Part shown: piece after piece, positions 19,915-26,541 of the stretch
Layout of the letters: every line of letters starts with the position of its first letter
Numbering within the stretch: position 1 is the stretch's first letter
IMG/VR virus record: IMGVR_UViG_3300043409_001777
Coordinates: 1 to 26,541 of that record
DNA length: 26,541 nucleotides
Direction: 5' to 3' (one strand)
From: a virus
Position numbers and translations under genes: made by a program
Notes under the pieces: model-generated
Databases searched by the model: none
Told to the model about the DNA's origin: nothing
What the model saw: the letters and a program-made list of their open reading frames with translations, nothing else

Positions 19915-20308
19915 TCTCATCGATATCGTTGTTCCGTTCGTTGGTCGCGCGTGGGAGCCGCCAGCATTCGATTGCTGGCAGTTCCTCCGCCTGGTCTATC
20001 GCCAAGCGTACGGCATCGAGTTGCACGAGCTGGGCCACGTTGCGGGCGACACCGCGCGGGACGTTCCCTTTGCCTACACCGAGGCCGGCAGCGGTAGGTG
20101 GTGCCCGGTGTTGATCCCGCGCGATGGTGACGCGGTGGCGATGGGGCGACGAGAACGGCCGCACCATGTCGGCATCTGGCTGGCAACGGACGGCGGCCTA
20201 GTGGCGCACTGTGCCGAACCGCTCGGCGTGACGGTCGCGCCAATTCGCGCGCTTGCCGTCGTCGGCTGGGGGTCGCTCAAGTTCTACCGTCACCGGGACC
20301 GCGCATGA
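19907..20308 (+). CDS. NlpC/P60-family peptidoglycan hydrolase of the tail tip (gpK-like)
   Basis: This 133-residue protein is a small tail-associated cysteine peptidase that likely opens peptidoglycan during DNA entry. The catalytic Cys lies in FDCWQF (Cys23), the catalytic His probably in HHVGIW (His87), and a second His in LVAH (His101). DGDAVAMG precedes the His, as in the family. The best start is GTG 19907, overlapping the upstream stop. TTG 19898 is also possible, and earlier starts would add unrelated residues. Lambda gpK also has a JAB domain, which is absent here. Confidence 0.85.
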   Translation: MSDLIDIVVPFVGRAWEPPAFDCWQFLRLVYRQAYGIELHELGHVAGDTARDVPFAYTEAGSGRWCPVLIPRDGDAVAMGRRERPHHVGIWLATDGGLVAHCAEPLGVTVAPIRALAVVGWGSLKFYRHRDRA

Positions 20309-22986
20309 CCATCAAGTTACTTGCCTGCGCCGATCCATTCCAGCCACACCGCCGGGGGCTGTCAGAGTTGCCGTCCGGTCGCACGGTGCGCGATTGCCTG
20401 CGCTCTGCCGACATGGCAGACGGCCGCCCTGCCGTGGTTTCAATCAATGGCGTGTGGGTCCTGCAAGCGGAGTGGGAGCGCCCAATAGAATCCGGCGCCG
20501 TGGTGGTTGCCGTCCGCCTGGTGGCCGGTGGGAAAAACGCCGGCCTATGGGTGTCCATCGGCATGATCGCCATTGGCGCGGTGCTGTTGTTCACCCCGCT
20601 GGCGGGCGTCGGCGTCGCGCTCATCGCTGGCGGCGTGGTTGGCCTCGCCTCCTCGTTGCTGATTCAAACGCCGCGCGTCCCAAGCGCGCTGCAATTTGAA
20701 AGCGGATCGCCAACCTACGCGCTAGACGTGGTCAACCGTCGCCGCATCGGCGAGCCAATCCCGGTCCTCTACGGGACGCACCGCATCGTGCCGGACCTCA
20801 TCGCCAACCCGTACACCGAATATGACAGCAATGACCAATATCTTTTTATGGTGCTTTGTCTCGGAAATGGTGAGTTCGACATCGACGAGGTGCGCATTGC
20901 TGAATCCGTCGTCACCCGGCTGTCCAACTTCACCTCGCAGATTGTCGAGCCGGGCGATACGCTGACCCTGTTTGAGGACAACGTCAGTACCTCCAGCCTC
21001 GTCCAGGGTCAGCTACTACGCGCGACCAATGACGCGAACCTCCCAGGCCGTGGGCGCGTGCAAATGTTCGCCAGCACGCAGCGCGTCCATTCACTGGATG
21101 ACCCGGACCTTTTCATCGGTGCCAGCATTGGCGACCTTCTCACGCTGACCAATTGCACCAACGCCATGGTCTCGGAGGCCATCGTTGACGTAGACGCCGG
21201 TGGCCTGTGGGTGGAAATTGCCGCCGGACTGGTGGACGAGTCGCCAAAAGCGGCGGGCGTCAACGTCGACACCGTTGGGGATTTGATCATTGCAGGCAAC
21301 GTCACGTTCACCGCTGGCACCAAGGCCATTTCAGACCCAACGCTAAAGCGATTTATCCGCCTCAAGCCCGGCGACTCCATCACCATCAGCAACACGGCGA
21401 GCAACAACGCAACGCTCACGCTCGACACCGTCGACCCCAGCGGGGCCAGCGCCACCGTGCTGGAAACGATCGTGGGCGAGACACTCGCCAACCCGTACAT
21501 CATTCTAGCCAGCGGTGGCTACGTCGGTCCGTTCCCGGTGAACGCGACCAACACCGACTTGCAGGCGATCGGCCTAGATATTCTTTTTGCCAAGGGCCTG
21601 ACCAACAACGGCGCGGAGTATACCGTGGGCGTCGAGTTCCAGGCGCGGCCGATCGACAACAACGGCGACCCCACCGGACCCGGCACGTGGACCACGCTGG
21701 GCACGGAGTCGATCACGCGCAACAACCTCTCAGCGGTGCGCGTGTCCTTCCGCTACAACCCGCCAACGTCGGCAGATCGGTGGGAGGTGCGCGTCCGGCG
21801 CACCACGTCGTCACCGTTCAACGCCAACATCCCCGACGAGGCCACGTGGGCGGGCATGCGCGCGTATCTCCCAAGTGTTGGCACCTATGCCGATGTCACG
21901 TTGTACGCGCTACGCGTGAAGGCCACGGAGCAGATCCCGCAGGACGTGGCGCGGCAAATCAACATCATTGCCACGCGCAAGTTGCCGGTGTGGAACGGCA
22001 TCACGTGGAGCGCGCCCCAGGCGACTCGCTCACCGGCCTGGGCACTGGCCGACGTGTTGCGGAATGGCGACTATGGCGCCGACCTACCGGAGAGCCGCAT
22101 CGACCTAGCCAAACTGTTGGAGCTGGACGGCATTTGGGCAGGACGCGGCGACTATTTCGACGCCGTTTTTGACCAGACGATCACGGTGTGGGAGACCTTG
22201 CAGCGCATTGCCAGAGCCGGTCGTGCAACGCCCATCGTCAGCGGCGGCACCGTCACGTTCGTACGCGACCAAGCGCGCGCGATTCGCACAGCGCTCTATG
22301 CGCCGGCTCACATGAAAAAGGGCAGTCTGGGCATTGAATACACCTTTCGCCAAGCCGACGATCCGGACGGCATCGAGCTGGCATGGATCGACCCCAACAC
22401 CTGGCGGCAAGCGCACATTGAGGCGACGGTGGGCGGCGGCGCCCCACTCCGCCCGGCATCGGTCGACCTGTTCGGCGTGACCAACCAAGCGCAGGCGCAG
22501 CGCGAGGCCACCTACTTGGCGCGCGTCGACGCCTACCAACGCAAGGTCATCCGCTTCACCACCGAGCTCGACGGGCATATTCCGCTGGTGGGCGACCTCA
22601 TCGCCATCAGCCACGACGTTCCGAGCTGGGGCCAATCCGGCGCTCTCTTGGCCATCAGCGGCACCACGTACACCACCACAGAGCCGTTGACCTGGACGCC
22701 ATCCAGCGCGCACTACGTCGGCCTGCGCAAGCCAGACGGCAGCCTATCCGGCCCCTGGGCCGTCACCGAAGTAACCGACAACCCCAACGCCTTCATCCTG
22801 GTGGGCGCCCTGGGATTCATCCCACGTCTCGACCTATCGAACGGCGACCGCACCGCCTACCTGTTCGGACCTGGCACCACCTGGTGCCAGGACGTAGTGG
22901 TCACCAAGATCATGCCCCGCAGCGAGACCGAGGTAGAGCTAACATGTCAGCCCTACGACCCACGAATCTACGCCGCAGGATCTTGA
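20305..22986 (+). CDS. Tail tip / host specificity protein, I-J fusion (TipJ-like)
   Basis: This 893-residue protein is the central tail-tip protein contacting the receptor. It starts at an ATGA overlap. Residues 1-75 form a ubiquitin-like region, as in gpI (LPSGRTVRDCLRSADM, then GAVVVAVRLVAGG). Residues 80-120 are a hydrophobic Gly/Ala-rich stretch also typical of gpI. The J part follows from GEPIPVLYGTHRIVPDLI, with later motifs WALADVLRNGDYG, FDQTITVWETLQRIARAGRATPI, GIELAWIDPNTW and REATYLARVDAYQRKVIRFTT. The end reads TTWCQDVVVTKIMP...VELTCQPYDPRIYAA. It is shorter than lambda J (1132 residues). The 3' end overlaps the minus-strand recombinase by 77 bases. Confidence 0.88.
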   Translation: MTIKLLACADPFQPHRRGLSELPSGRTVRDCLRSADMADGRPAVVSINGVWVLQAEWERPIESGAVVVAVRLVAGGKNAGLWVSIGMIAIGAVLLFTPLAGVGVALIAGGVVGLASSLLIQTPRVPSALQFESGSPTYALDVVNRRRIGEPIPVLYGTHRIVPDLIANPYTEYDSNDQYLFMVLCLGNGEFDIDEVRIAESVVTRLSNFTSQIVEPGDTLTLFEDNVSTSSLVQGQLLRATNDANLPGRGRVQMFASTQRVHSLDDPDLFIGASIGDLLTLTNCTNAMVSEAIVDVDAGGLWVEIAAGLVDESPKAAGVNVDTVGDLIIAGNVTFTAGTKAISDPTLKRFIRLKPGDSITISNTASNNATLTLDTVDPSGASATVLETIVGETLANPYIILASGGYVGPFPVNATNTDLQAIGLDILFAKGLTNNGAEYTVGVEFQARPIDNNGDPTGPGTWTTLGTESITRNNLSAVRVSFRYNPPTSADRWEVRVRRTTSSPFNANIPDEATWAGMRAYLPSVGTYADVTLYALRVKATEQIPQDVARQINIIATRKLPVWNGITWSAPQATRSPAWALADVLRNGDYGADLPESRIDLAKLLELDGIWAGRGDYFDAVFDQTITVWETLQRIARAGRATPIVSGGTVTFVRDQARAIRTALYAPAHMKKGSLGIEYTFRQADDPDGIELAWIDPNTWRQAHIEATVGGGAPLRPASVDLFGVTNQAQAQREATYLARVDAYQRKVIRFTTELDGHIPLVGDLIAISHDVPSWGQSGALLAISGTTYTTTEPLTWTPSSAHYVGLRKPDGSLSGPWAVTEVTDNPNAFILVGALGFIPRLDLSNGDRTAYLFGPGTTWCQDVVVTKIMPRSETEVELTCQPYDPRIYAAGS
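22871..22890. repeat. 20-bp palindrome at the convergent gene ends
   Basis: CTGGCACCACCTGGTGCCAG is a perfect 9-2-9 inverted repeat near the 3' end of the tail-tip gene and 20 bases beyond the recombinase stop. It could act as a hairpin ending recombinase transcription, though no T-run follows on either strand. It also encodes conserved-looking residues, so it may be chance. Confidence 0.5.
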
Positions 22987-24079
22987 CCGGAAAGCGGCCT
23001 AAACGCACCGTCACGGTTCGTACGCCGTGCAGACGGGGTAACTTTTCTGACGAGTAGTACGAACCACCGGCCGCTGCGGTTTCTGGCCGGTAGAGTTCCA
23101 TGACCATTTGGTCCGGCAATAATCGTACGCGTTTGACGATGATTCGCAGGACGGCGCCGAGTTCTTCCGCTGATCCGCTTGCTATGGCGGCGAGTTTTTC
23201 GCGCATGTGATCCATGACTAAATCGAGGCTGCCGAGGTCGACGTTGCCGGCGGATTCGCTGCCGACGAGGTAAGCCAGGCGCGAGTCTATGCGCACCAGC
23301 TCGACATTGAGCGCTTTCATTGATTCATTGAATACGGGCGTGCCTATTTGCGTGCGCAGGGTGAGGTGTCCGATTCGCGCCCCTACTTGCTCGCGTTCTG
23401 CGGTGAGCTGGATGCGCTCGGTTCTGATGGTGTCGACGTTGGCGCGGGCGTGTTCCATGCATGTGCGAAGTTCCCGCGCGTATTCGCCGGCATGATCAAG
23501 GGCGCGGATGATCGATTCGCGGACCTCTTGTTCTATCGGCTCGCACCGTTCGTCCTTTTGTTTGCATAGTTTTTTTGGCTTGGCGGTGCAGCGAAAAAAA
23601 CGATAGGCGCCGCCGTTGCCGTTCGCGGTGATCTGTACCATGGAGGCGTCGCAGGATGGGCACCGCAGCAGGCCGGCGAGTGGTGATGGTTGCATGGCGC
23701 GGTTTCCTATCGGTTGAGTGATGCCTTTGCGGCCTGGTGCTTCGCGCCCGGCGAGGGCTTGCCGTGCTGCGTTCTGCGTGGCGGCGTCGACCAGCACGCC
23801 GACCACTTGGTGTGACAGTATCAAATTGCGGACGGTGGTGGGCGTCCAGCCGGTGCGAGTTTCGATTCCTGGGCGCGAGGTGGGGCGTATGCCGTCATCC
23901 TTGAAGCGCTGGCACAGCATGGCCAATGATGCGCCTGCGATGATTTCCGGCCAGGCACGCGCGACGGCGTCGGCCTGTTCGCCGCGAGCCAGTCGCTTGT
24001 GGTTGCCGTCCATCACCACGTTGCAGCCGGCAGGCACCGCGCGGCCGAGCCAGCGGCCCTGGGTGCGCGCGTGATCCAT
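22910..24079 (-). CDS. Large serine recombinase, catalytic domain missing (probable pseudogene)
   Basis: The 389-residue reading begins MDHARTQGRWLGRAVPAG. It then shows a recombinase domain (RGEQADAVARAW through GWTPTTVRNLILSHQVVG), a zinc ribbon (CPSC and, later, C-K-Q-K-D-E-R-C) and a coiled-coil region (about residues 195-300), in the order of phage large serine integrases. The N-terminal resolvase domain with its Ser nucleophile (about 140 residues) is absent. Homology continues a little upstream in frame without a start codon (IHLLGSIAQLESETVGQRVKAA), to about base 24150, where the sequence turns into a lipoprotein gene. The simplest reading is a deletion. Without the serine it should not recombine DNA. 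The 3' end overlaps the tail-tip gene convergently. Confidence 0.85.
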   Translation of the reverse strand: MDHARTQGRWLGRAVPAGCNVVMDGNHKRLARGEQADAVARAWPEIIAGASLAMLCQRFKDDGIRPTSRPGIETRTGWTPTTVRNLILSHQVVGVLVDAATQNAARQALAGREAPGRKGITQPIGNRAMQPSPLAGLLRCPSCDASMVQITANGNGGAYRFFRCTAKPKKLCKQKDERCEPIEQEVRESIIRALDHAGEYARELRTCMEHARANVDTIRTERIQLTAEREQVGARIGHLTLRTQIGTPVFNESMKALNVELVRIDSRLAYLVGSESAGNVDLGSLDLVMDHMREKLAAIASGSAEELGAVLRIIVKRVRLLPDQMVMELYRPETAAAGGSYYSSEKLPRLHGVRTVTVRLGRFPVKILRRRFVGRRADMLALPRSRCGA

Positions 24080-24113
24080 CGCCGCCTTGACGCGTTGGCC
24101 GACCGTTTCGCTT

Positions 24114-24275
24114 TCAAGCTGTGCGATCGAGCCGAGGAGATGGATAGCTGTCCGCCTTGGCCAAGCCGTGGCTTATCGTGAAGCGTTGCGTGCTCTCCTC
24201 TTTGGTGAGTTGTCGGTATCCACAGCCGCTCAGCGACAGGAGGGACACCAGGGCTAGGACTGAAATCATATGCAT
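24114..24275 (-). CDS. Truncated small lipoprotein, runs out of frame into recombinase
   Basis: This 53-residue ORF has a good ribosome binding site (AAGGA, ten bases before the ATG). It has a clean lipoprotein signal: hydrophobic ISVLALVSLLSLSGC with the lipobox LSGC (Cys18). The following residues TKEESTQRFTISHGLAKADSY look like the start of a normal periplasmic lipoprotein. The last ten residues (PSPRLDRTA) are read from recombinase DNA in another frame, so the gene has lost its 3' part. It may originally have been a moron in the lysogeny block, for example for superinfection exclusion or host conversion. That role is inference. The protein could still be made and exported. Confidence 0.65.
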   Translation of the reverse strand: MHMISVLALVSLLSLSGCGYRQLTKEESTQRFTISHGLAKADSYPSPRLDRTA

Positions 24276-24314: not shown

Positions 24315-24809
24315 TCACGATTGAAGCGTTAAAAACAGAGGCGAAACATATCGCATGGTCAAGCCCTTACGGGCTACCCGGCGAGCAATGCGCCGGGCTG
24401 AATCGGTAACCAGAACCCTAGCCGACATCAAGCGCACGGATGCCCTTGATTTTCCTAAGCCTGCGGAGCAGGCGACGACCAGCGCGGAATCATCAGCAGA
24501 TAGCGATAATCGGCGCTCTTTAAGTGCGGTTGAAAGCACGAGGGATAGCCGGCGCTCTTTAACATTGCCAGCAAAAAAAGCGGGTAAAAAAATCAGCGGT
24601 CCGTACGATGACAAAATGCTCAAAGATTTATTATTGAAAAAGAAGCCTTTGGCTTTGGTGTTATCGGCAAAAGGGCTGGTAAAATGGGCGCAAAGCATCC
24701 GCCCAGGTGATGACAATATGGCCGAGGCCATATTATTCGCAAAGAATCGGCTGGTAAAAATCAAACAGCCATACGATGGAGAGATGCGACCCCGCAAGGC
24801 ATCACTCAT
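24315..24809 (-). CDS. Uncertain ORF over an AT-richer repeat region
   Basis: The 164-residue minus ORF starts in an eight-base overlap with the repressor stop (ATGAGTGA) and has AGAGG eight bases upstream, which favours this strand. It fits a minus-strand unit running repressor, this ORF, lipoprotein. The product is unusual: Phe/Ser/Leu-rich, with internal repeats such as SYGCLIFTSRFFANN and SYGPLIFLPAFFAGN, and KERRLSL twice. The plus strand is also open (24355-24954, 199 residues, Lys-rich, with three AK..VK..PYDD.M-like repeats), but its 3' part runs antisense to the repressor. Repeats are spaced by multiples of three, so both frames look ordered. It could also be a noncoding repeat tract. 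Confidence 0.35.
   Translation of the reverse strand: MSDALRGRISPSYGCLIFTSRFFANNMASAILSSPGRMLCAHFTSPFADNTKAKGFFFNNKSLSILSSYGPLIFLPAFFAGNVKERRLSLVLSTALKERRLSLSADDSALVVACSAGLGKSRASVRLMSARVLVTDSARRIARRVARKGLTMRYVSPLFLTLQS
24511..24562. repeat. 13-bp direct repeat pair, 39-bp period
   Basis: CGGCGCTCTTTAA occurs at 24511-24523 and 24550-24562. The 39-bp period equals 13 codons, so the repeat is in phase in either coding reading. Confidence 0.8.
24571..24790. repeat. Three imperfect ~52-bp repeats
   Basis: Units at about 24571-24622, 24667-24721 and 24739-24790 share GCAAA, then GGTAAAA, then (less in the middle unit) a TACGATG-like block. Offsets are 96 and 72 bases, both multiples of three. 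Similarity is partial and was judged by eye. Confidence 0.55.
24715..24734. repeat. 20-bp perfect palindrome
   Basis: AATATGGCCGAGGCCATATT has 9-bp arms and a two-base centre. It lies within the repeat tract between the second and third units. It could be a protein-binding site or a hairpin; no T-run follows. Confidence 0.75.
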
Positions 24810-25173
24810 GCTTGCCGCCTCTCTGGCCTGCGCTTTCGAGCGCATCCAGGCGGATCTTGACGGCATCAATCGTCGTTTGTTGCGCCTTGAGCTGACGCAA
24901 CAGAGCAAGGAAACGAGGCTGGACGACGACGGGAAGGTGGGCGACTGCCGCTAAGTCCATGAAGTTCTGCCGCTCCTCGCCGTAAAGTTCCAGGGCATTT
25001 GCCCAGGAGTCGAGACGATCGAGGGGCGGCGGCTTGGTCTTTTTTAATACCTGCGTCACGTAACTTTGTGCGGCGTCTTCATTCTTGGCGTTCGTTGCCC
25101 TTACGAATGCCCGGCGAGACTCAAACTTGGCCGCTATTAGGGTATTTAGAAGTTGAGAGAAAGCGGTTGGCAC
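24802..25173 (-). CDS. Phage repressor (CI-like, HTH)
   Basis: From GTG 25173 this is a 123-residue protein. Its HTH part, about residues 4-55, reads AFSQLLNTLIAAKFESRRAFVRATNAKNEDAAQSYVTQVL then PPPLDRLDSWANALEL. It ends in a helix likely to be a coiled coil (ALLRQLKAQQTTIDAVKIRLDALE). Short repressors without a peptidase domain of this pattern are known from Xanthomonadales prophages. The frame is open upstream to ATG 25251 and beyond, but that would encode through the palindromic operator at 25221, so I prefer the GTG, despite no clear Shine-Dalgarno. Divergent orientation from early genes and flanking operators support the role. It should hold lytic genes off. Confidence 0.75.
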   Translation of the reverse strand: MPTAFSQLLNTLIAAKFESRRAFVRATNAKNEDAAQSYVTQVLKKTKPPPLDRLDSWANALELYGEERQNFMDLAAVAHLPVVVQPRFLALLRQLKAQQTTIDAVKIRLDALESAGQRGGKHE

Positions 25174-25220: not shown

Positions 25221-25239
25221 TGGACACCAATGGTGTCCA
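25221..25239. promoter_or_regulatory. Operator 1, 19-bp palindrome
   Basis: TGGACACCAATGGTGTCCA has perfect 8-bp arms with a three-base centre. It lies 48 bases upstream of the repressor GTG start. The same half-sites recur at 25287. It is likely bound by the adjacent repressor. A rightward -35 (TTGCAT, 25215-25220) and a poor -10 (CATGAT, 25238-25243) flank it. Confidence 0.8.
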
Positions 25240-25286: not shown

Positions 25287-25305
25287 TGGACACCAAAAGT
25301 GTCCA
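25287..25305. promoter_or_regulatory. Operator 2, 19-bp palindrome
   Basis: TGGACACCAAAAGTGTCCA has 7-bp arms with a five-base centre and the same total length as operator 1. Centre-to-centre distance is 66 bases, about six helical turns, which would let one protein complex bind both on one face. It covers the -35 and spacer of the early promoter. Confidence 0.8.
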
Positions 25306-25316
25306 GTCTTTATGAT
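25287..25316 (+). promoter_or_regulatory. Putative early rightward promoter
   Basis: TGGACA (25287-25292) as -35 and TATGAT (25311-25316) as -10 are separated by 18 bases; each matches five of six sigma-70 consensus positions. The operator overlaps the -35 and spacer, so repressor binding would block it. The expected start of transcription (near 25323) lies after the ATG at 25312, which leaves the start of the next gene in doubt. Confidence 0.5.
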
Positions 25317-25527
25317 CTACCGCCCGACTCTCACCACTACCACCGCCCCGGAGATCCTGGCCACCATCCAGGCGATCCAGGCCGCCGAGCAGCGCACCCG
25401 CGCGAGCGTGGTCCAAGAGTTGTTGACTCTGGGACTCAAGGCTCGCGGCAAAGCTCTAGCTGGTGTCGTGCGTCGTAGCGGTGCGCGTCATGTTCATGCC
25501 CGTGATTCTGTCGGGGTGAAATCGTGA
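25312..25527 (+). CDS. Ribbon-helix-helix-like early regulator (Cro position)
   Basis: This 71-residue protein reads RPTLTTTTAPEILATIQAIQAAEQRTRASVVQELLTLGLKARGK: one short strand, then two helices, the plan of Arc/MetJ-type ribbon-helix-helix proteins. The basic C-terminus is probably flexible. It is the first rightward gene after the operators, where Cro lies in lambdoid phages. ATG 25312 has no ribosome binding site and falls in the presumed -10, so either the transcript starts further upstream or translation is leaderless. Its stop overlaps the next start (GTGA). The DNA-binding role is an inference from fold pattern and place. Confidence 0.6.
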   Translation: MIYRPTLTTTTAPEILATIQAIQAAEQRTRASVVQELLTLGLKARGKALAGVVRRSGARHVHARDSVGVKS

Positions 25528-25976
25528 GGCACGCAACGAATGCCCGCCCGTCGTTGCGTCCGCTGTCCGAGGCTTTCGCGCAGTTCCGCGACCGCATCGC
25601 CGCCGCTGAGATCGGACGCCGATTAGATTTGTCCACGTCGACCATTAGCCGCGACCGCAAGGACTCGCCTGTGGAGTCGTGGTCGTTCGCTGAGCTGATC
25701 CGTACTGACGAACTGTTGCGCCACGTGCTGACCGATTACCTAGACGGCGGACACTCAAGCTCTGCTGACCCGCGCTTGCTGGCTGCTGATCTGGCGCGCG
25801 AAGTCCAGGCAACGGCGGATCTGCACTGCACCGTGATGGCCGCGCAGGCAGACGGGAAGATTGACCCGCGTGAGCGCGCGCTGATCCGCCAACGAATCCT
25901 TGATCGTCAAAACACCGACGCCGCGCTCCTGCGTGATTTGGAAGCGATGGACGCACGTGAAGGAGCCAGGTCATGA
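25524..25976 (+). CDS. CII-like transcriptional regulator (HTH)
   Basis: This 150-residue protein starts with GTG overlapping the previous stop. Residues about 13-50 read LSEAFAQFRDRIAAAEIGRRLDLSTSTISRDRKDS, a helix-turn-helix of the phage CII/early regulator type. The C-terminal half is helical and charged (LAADLAREVQATADLHCTVMAAQADGKIDPRERALIRQRIL). It sits second in the rightward early operon, like cII in lambdoid phages. The N-terminal domain is well supported; the DNA target and role in the lysis-lysogeny choice are not. It is longer than lambda CII (97 residues). Confidence 0.7.
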   Translation: MRHATNARPSLRPLSEAFAQFRDRIAAAEIGRRLDLSTSTISRDRKDSPVESWSFAELIRTDELLRHVLTDYLDGGHSSSADPRLLAADLAREVQATADLHCTVMAAQADGKIDPRERALIRQRILDRQNTDAALLRDLEAMDAREGARS

Positions 25977-26137
25977 GCGACAAAGCCAAGCCACGATTCA
26001 CTAAGCCCGCACAAATCATCATCAGCGAAGAACGGCGCGACGTGGTGACGTTGTGCAACGCGATGCTCGATCAATCAAAAATCCGTCTGGTGCGCCTGCG
26101 CGCATTGGTCGATGCAGGAAAGGCAGTAAAACCATGA
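25973..26137 (+). CDS. Small helical hypothetical protein
   Basis: This 54-residue protein starts at an ATGA overlap with the CII-like gene and ends at ATGA with the next. The upstream AAGGAGCCAGGTC holds a very good ribosome binding site, AAGGAG. It is basic: MSDKAKPRFTKPAQIIISEE, then RRDVVTLCNAMLDQSKIRLVRLRALVDAG. No family was recognised. The tight overlaps and strong site make a real gene likely. Confidence 0.65.
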   Translation: MSDKAKPRFTKPAQIIISEERRDVVTLCNAMLDQSKIRLVRLRALVDAGKAVKP

Positions 26138-26382
26138 ACGATCCTCAATCAGTCAAAGGCGTCTACGCGATCGACAAGGGCGTGCCCGTGGTGGTGCGTC
26201 GCTGTGAACGTGTGCGCAAATATCCGATTCGTGACATGCAGGTGGGCGACAGCTTTCTGGTGCCGACGGCGGACATTCAACGCAACCTTGCCCAACACGT
26301 TCGCAACGTCGCCGTCGCGCACGGCATGAAGACGGCAGTGCGCAAGACAGACGACGGCGTCCGCGTTTGGCGGATCGCATGA
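26134..26382 (+). CDS. Small phage protein of the VGDSF / RVWRI type (DUF7303-like)
   Basis: This 82-residue protein starts at an ATGA overlap, with AGGAAAGG shortly upstream. The core YPIRDMQVGDSFLVPTADIQRNL followed by HGMKTAVRK and the end DGVRVWRIA is a pattern I know from small phage early-region proteins, which I place tentatively in DUF7303. The family's function is unknown to me. An upstream extension to 26053 is possible but has no support. It belongs to the early operon. Confidence 0.7.
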   Translation: MNDPQSVKGVYAIDKGVPVVVRRCERVRKYPIRDMQVGDSFLVPTADIQRNLAQHVRNVAVAHGMKTAVRKTDDGVRVWRIA

Positions 26383-26541
26383 GCGCGGCGCGTCAACACA
26401 CGGACGGCATCAGTGCCACGGGCGAAACCACGCAAATCATCAAGCCGATGGGCCGTGCTGAGGAAGCGTTGCGCAAGACTGGTCACCAGTCGCCAAATTG
26501 CCGCCCAATCAGCAACGAGGACTGGATCGAGTTGGAATCTC
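26379..26541 (+). CDS. Hypothetical early protein (3' partial)
   Basis: An ATG in ATGA overlap with the previous stop opens a frame that stays open to the window end (54 codons seen). It starts MSAARQHTDGISATGETTQ and contains KPMGRAEEALRKTG and NCRPISNEDWIEL. No domain was recognised. The overlap pattern shared by the whole early operon makes it credible. Confidence 0.55.
   Translation, partial: MSAARQHTDGISATGETTQIIKPMGRAEEALRKTGHQSPNCRPISNEDWIELES

Follow-up and report, generated by a model that had tools for sequence, protein, structure and literature searches.

A large serine integrase gene without its catalytic domain is joined, out of frame, to the start of a lipoprotein gene in the IMG/VR virus record IMGVR_UViG_3300043409_001777, the whole of which (26,541 bases) was analysed here and is called the window. 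The two genes are whole and adjacent in a related contig, and the surviving part of the integrase shows no decay. A small deletion between neighbouring lipoprotein and integrase genes, in the lysogeny module of a temperate phage that would thereby have lost integration, is in our judgement quite probably the explanation.

The junction and the two remnants

The features of the fused locus are the following.

24144..24275, minus strand: 5' part of a lipoprotein gene (44 codons: signal, lipobox LSGC and start of the mature protein), recognised by its translation, a PHROG 8801 match and its likeness to the lipoprotein of the related locus L194
24144..24154, minus strand: junction; lipoprotein similarity stops at Y44 (24144) and integrase similarity starts between R (24154) and I (24145)
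22910..24154, minus strand: headless large serine integrase with helix E, Recombinase domain, zinc ribbon, coiled coil and complete C-terminus, without the catalytic domain
about 23980-23774, minus strand: Recombinase domain of the integrase
about 23683-23516, minus strand: zinc ribbon of the integrase

The lipoprotein gene is preceded by an AAGGA ribosome site (24290-24286) and starts at the ATG at 24275 of the minus strand, and its frame reads MHMISVLALVSLLSLSGC-GYRQLTKEESTQRFTISHGLAKADSY through HGLAKADSY (Y44 = 24146-24144), after which out-of-register residues lead to a stop at 24114. A type II signal peptide and a lipobox are present in MHMISVLALVSLLSLSGC (translation read by eye), and lipobox-based families give weak matches below cut-off on this start. 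The PHROG 8801 lipoprotein match terminates at 24144; as a family assignment, PHROG 8801 was dropped and is not relied on, the model being weak and also ringing in unrelated genomes. The integrase sequence from 24154-24145 starts IHLLGSIAQLESETVGQRVK, corresponding to helix E of a large serine integrase, in a frame that is shifted relative to that of the lipoprotein, open for about five codons upstream of 24154 and then continuous to 22910. When homologues were aligned to the query with four extra upstream codons, the alignments started exactly at the CGG codon at 24154 in 20 of 28 cases and earlier in two. Because the lipoprotein match ends at 24144 and integrase homology mostly starts at 24154, we place the breakpoint within 24144-24154, with its exact position, the size of the deletion and any microhomology judged against a distant comparison (integrases about 26-27% identical). 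The preliminary description had proposed such an out-of-frame fusion at about 24145-24155, and the two similarities indeed meet there.

On the integrase fragment, matches were obtained to PF07508 (22.2 bits, cut-off 21.1), to PF13408 (28.9 bits, cut-off 25.3) and to the integrase family PHROG 95 (E 1.7e-27), the last beginning at profile position 208 at 24145, compared with 42-86 in intact homologues. The sole Resolvase (PF00239) match in a six-frame search of the record covers profile positions 111-145 of 145, at 24154-24050, and the same search found no separate catalytic-domain gene elsewhere in the record, an arrangement that had been raised earlier as an alternative. Of 32 homologues, 28 have a YxRxS catalytic motif upstream, in most cases 104-113 residues ahead of where the window homology sets in, and the N-terminal Resolvase domain with this active serine is missing from the window integrase. 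The profile start of the fragment maps to residues 122-142 of Bxb1 and SprA and to residue 102 of DNA-invertases. The predicted fold gives, among hits with E < 0.2, only large serine integrases (SPbeta SprA, Bxb1, phiC31, LI), with serine integrases throughout hits 1-17; since the structure model is of low confidence (mean pLDDT 57.5), these hits are taken as support only. The fragment thus shares with large serine integrases (phiC31, Bxb1, SPbeta SprA, LI/A118; PHROG 95; PF07508 + PF13408) helix E, the recombinase domain, a zinc ribbon with four cysteines, the coiled coil and the C-terminus, and adjoins a lysogeny module as they do, but the PF00239 catalytic domain, about 117-130 residues with the active serine, is absent. 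By these alignments the fragment begins at helix E with no catalytic domain before it, so that the earlier term "headless" holds for the lost catalytic domain and is refined in that helix E is kept alongside the DNA-binding domains.

The lipoprotein has likewise lost its C-terminus, as had been claimed: 27 mature residues precede the junction, and the whole mature domain of the L194 type (about 130 residues, PHROG 4002 / DUF4468-like) is absent. If the gene was once as long as its L194 counterpart, it would have lost about 100 residues. The 27 mature residues resemble the L194 lipoprotein (IxHG...A..Y, with 5/16 residues around IxHG; shuffle p 0.0014). The PHROG 4002 profile finds no match in the window, leaving the 44-residue remnant undetected, and a BLASTP comparison of this remnant with the L194 lipoprotein gave no match; homology of the two lipoproteins is weakly suggested by sequence and leans on synteny.

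Intact relatives and the missing segment

The most informative relative is the contig IMGVR_UViG_3300031548_000010 (L194/L217), surfaced by a helix-E pattern scan, in which both genes are whole. Its locus L194 contains, the first three genes being on one strand:

292-738: repressor gene
867-1307: lipoprotein gene
1308-2855: serine integrase gene
from 2862: convergent tail genes

The L194 lipoprotein (146 aa, PHROG 4002, weak DUF4468) has its stop directly abutting the integrase start, and cro-like and CII-like genes lie ahead of the repressor on the opposite strand. The minus strand of the window has the same order, with the repressor at 25173-24802, the lipoprotein start at 24275, the integrase to 22910 and the convergent tail gene J. 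The two integrases align from the R at 24154 to the C-terminus (tblastn E 2.5e-23), the L194 terminase large subunit (TerL) is 45% identical to that of the window, and TMP and tail genes are colinear. The two loci therefore agree in their cro-like, repressor, lipoprotein, serine integrase and convergent tail genes, and differ in that both L194 genes are whole, whereas the window pair is short of about 0.66 kb, and in that the integrases are only 26-27% identical. A second contig, L218 (IMGVR_UViG_3300037471_000551), has a repressor, an exported protein and a serine integrase in the order of the window, although its exported protein is unrelated to the lipoprotein in that slot. The intact relatives sought to judge the deletion-scar reading thus exist, syntenic and with both genes whole, and they support it.

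On the L194 scale, the missing piece corresponds to 999-1658, about 660 bp across two adjacent genes, so that the deletion would have taken the end of the lipoprotein gene together with the beginning of the integrase gene next to it. What remains would be a lipoprotein gene that falls out of register and soon meets a stop, and an integrase that retains helix E, both DNA-binding domains (recombinase and zinc ribbon) and the coiled coil, with the catalytic serine gone. The deletion would be larger than about 0.66 kb if an extra gene lay between the two, as in G839 (IMGVR_UViG_3300042691_055943, 35 kb), the closest whole-genome relative, with a terminase 64% identical to that of the window. G839 is largely colinear with the window from TerL to J and has a lipoprotein gene between integrase and repressor, but its integrase is a tyrosine rather than a serine enzyme, and it also has a further gene, for a membrane protein, and about 6 kb of early genes absent from the window. 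The G839 slot (L318 7667-10975) holds the tyrosine integrase, the membrane-protein gene and an unrelated lipoprotein, and this difference implies that integrase type and lipoprotein are both exchanged between relatives. Loss of a large early module from between lipoprotein and integrase was considered and dropped, since the two are adjacent in L194.

It had also been suggested that the phage attachment site was lost with the deletion. This part of the earlier reading is not upheld: L194 has no room for attP in either gap, because its lipoprotein and integrase genes abut and about 6 bp separate the integrase stop from the end of the convergent tail gene. The site more likely lies upstream of the lipoprotein gene, in a stretch that the window retains, or inside a gene.

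Two further recombinase genes were observed in the comparison. In L097 1067-2539 (L014, IMGVR_UViG_3300037558_002885), a serine recombinase frame runs stop-free into an apparent tape-measure C-terminus, a possible further deletion fusion ending in a recombinase gene. In L193 (G045 contig 23), a serine recombinase homologue is open for only 44 residues ahead of helix E, shows no active-site motif and is possibly another headless copy.

The lysogeny module and the fidelity of the record

Around the fusion, the window contains:

24802..25173, minus strand: repressor-like gene with a GTG start, in the same order as in L194, L218 and G839, preceding the lipoprotein/integrase pair
25221-25239 (TGGACACCAATGGTGTCCA) and 25287-25305 (TGGACACCAAAAGTGTCCA): two near-identical 19-bp palindromes, probable operators, between the repressor-like and Arc-like genes
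25312..25527, plus strand: Arc-like (ribbon-helix-helix) small regulator in the cro position, with weak PHROG 4738/3431 matches
25524..25976, plus strand: CII-like regulator (weak PHROG 101, DUF533), in the same place as the CII-like genes of L217, L218 and G839
20305..22986, plus strand: tail protein J (PHROG 469, E 3e-147)

In our reading the locus is the lysogeny module of a tailed temperate phage, with the cro-like and CII-like genes on one strand and the repressor, lipoprotein and large serine integrase genes on the other. The repressor-like gene (24802..25173) has no family match in HMM searches, and matches the protein in the repressor position of G839 locally (35% over 54 aa, E 2e-7). 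The palindromes are the only two in the window, where 0.29 are expected, and two were reached in 4 of 100 shuffles; they have the form TGGACACC...GTGTCCA, and the second copy (25287-25305) overlaps a promoter-like site. A 199-codon plus-strand frame at 24355-24954 has no family match and contains a 22-bp direct repeat (24502, 24541). It shares 153 bp with the 3' end of the repressor-like gene; perhaps one of these two frames is not a gene over its full length. No tRNA or Rfam family was found in the window. With no catalytic serine, the recorded phage would be unable to catalyse its own integration or excision, and the chemistry of serine integrases indicates that it is probably unable to integrate.

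The state of the fragment bears on the age of the lesion. The integrase remnant is a single open frame of 414 codons without an internal stop, its codon usage is like that of the phage's own structural genes, and all four zinc cysteines are kept in the alignment. Gene J is convergent with it, and the two overlap by 77 bp at the integrase 3' end; an additional cut of the integrase C-terminus at this overlap was considered and dropped, since the fragment aligns to the L194 integrase through the C-terminus. The remnant of a prophage long in decay, with the deletion as one lesion among many, could account for an integrase that is dead as recorded and for the absence from the record of the replication region of G839. 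This reading is nevertheless improbable, given the undecayed fragment, the near identity of the two operators, the structural genes from TerL to J, which are open and largely colinear with those of relatives, and a TerL frame that continues across the record ends, as would suit a free circle better than a remnant in a chromosome. With the fragment undecayed and the repressor-operator switch in place, a recent small deletion appears favoured over an old prophage.

The terminase frame continues across 26541/1, which suggests a closed circle, and in G839 the terminase gene is likewise intact from its ATG across the ends of its record. Between the CII-like gene and the terminase (25976-26541 plus 1-120), the window has about 0.4 kb, compared with about 6 kb of early genes in G839. 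Either there has been a second large loss, of the early region, or the contig is incomplete and its frame continues by chance. The missing early region leaves the local finding unchanged and lowers confidence in the contig as a faithful whole genome. It is thus one of the points that speak for an assembly or amplification artefact, in which the real phage would have both genes whole and the contig would skip a segment; others are that this is an IMG/VR virus record and that the frame is broken at a single point in otherwise undecayed genes, as a mis-join would give. A mis-join by a de Bruijn assembler requires a word common to the two sides, and the surrounding window sequence has no repeat spanning the junction. 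Both sides moreover stand in the order, orientation and distance expected for a simple deletion between neighbours, unlike a random mis-join, and we consider an artefact unlikely and the deletion a change that the DNA itself would carry.

Possible products and known parallels

One further feature of the integrase frame has to be considered.

22910..24079, minus strand: first usable start in the integrase frame past the junction (ATG 24079, weak AAGG upstream, 389 aa)

This ATG falls inside helix E, about 35 bases past the stop of the lipoprotein frame, and could yield a 389-residue fragment. In the LI integrase, the C-terminal half retains binding to an attP half-site when the catalytic domain is missing (PMC3783163), and by this analogy a DNA-binding remnant of the headless integrase would be physically possible. 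It might be argued from this, from the ATG and from the undecayed state of both frames that the headless integrase and the short lipoprotein are both kept products of a functional split. We regard such a split as highly improbable: the searches brought up no relative in which the arrangement is conserved, out-of-frame residues close the truncated lipoprotein, and translation from this ATG would begin at a weak site. That the integrase product from ATG 24079 binds the attachment site uncut, as a regulator or as a decoy against the integration of related phages, has an equally slight chance of being correct.

The closest published parallel to the deletion is found in Streptococcus thermophilus phages, where the plaque-purified derivative TP-778L has a truncated integrase gene and the lysogeny module of TP-J34 has a lipoprotein gene beside a CI-like repressor gene (PMC3952083). 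The lipoprotein of TP-J34 / TP-778, Ltp, functions in superinfection exclusion (PMC3952083), and the window lipoprotein is likened to it by gene place. The window resembles these phages in having a lipoprotein gene in the lysogeny module near the repressor and, as in TP-778L, a truncated integrase; it differs in that the phages are unrelated and TP-778L arose by aberrant excision. In that phage the truncated integrase came from recombination with a second, truncated integrase gene of the host (PMC3952083), a precedent for aberrant excision or recombination with another element in place of a simple deletion. For the window this origin is very improbable, because what is fused to the integrase is neither host nor foreign DNA but the gene that relatives lead one to expect there.

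A simple deletion of this kind is an ordinary event, truncated integrases being documented in plaque-forming derivatives of temperate phages, and it is the phage lineage that is new to the collections searched. No integrase relative closer than about 26-27% identity was found, and no closer integrase at E <= 1e-12 was present in two sets of 399 genomes around a Caballeronia relative; a DNA-level search of phage records gave no match, and peptide-pattern searches with single window proteins gave no relative.

The locus documents a lysogeny module in which the gene immediately before the serine integrase encodes an exported protein or a lipoprotein, and it illustrates that annotations of "integrase present" based on domain hits can refer to a protein that has no active site. 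A temperate phage lineage appears to have been caught as integration is being lost and the repressor-operator switch is still apparently whole; if reads confirm the junction, it would offer a natural example in which to study the persistence of such a phage.
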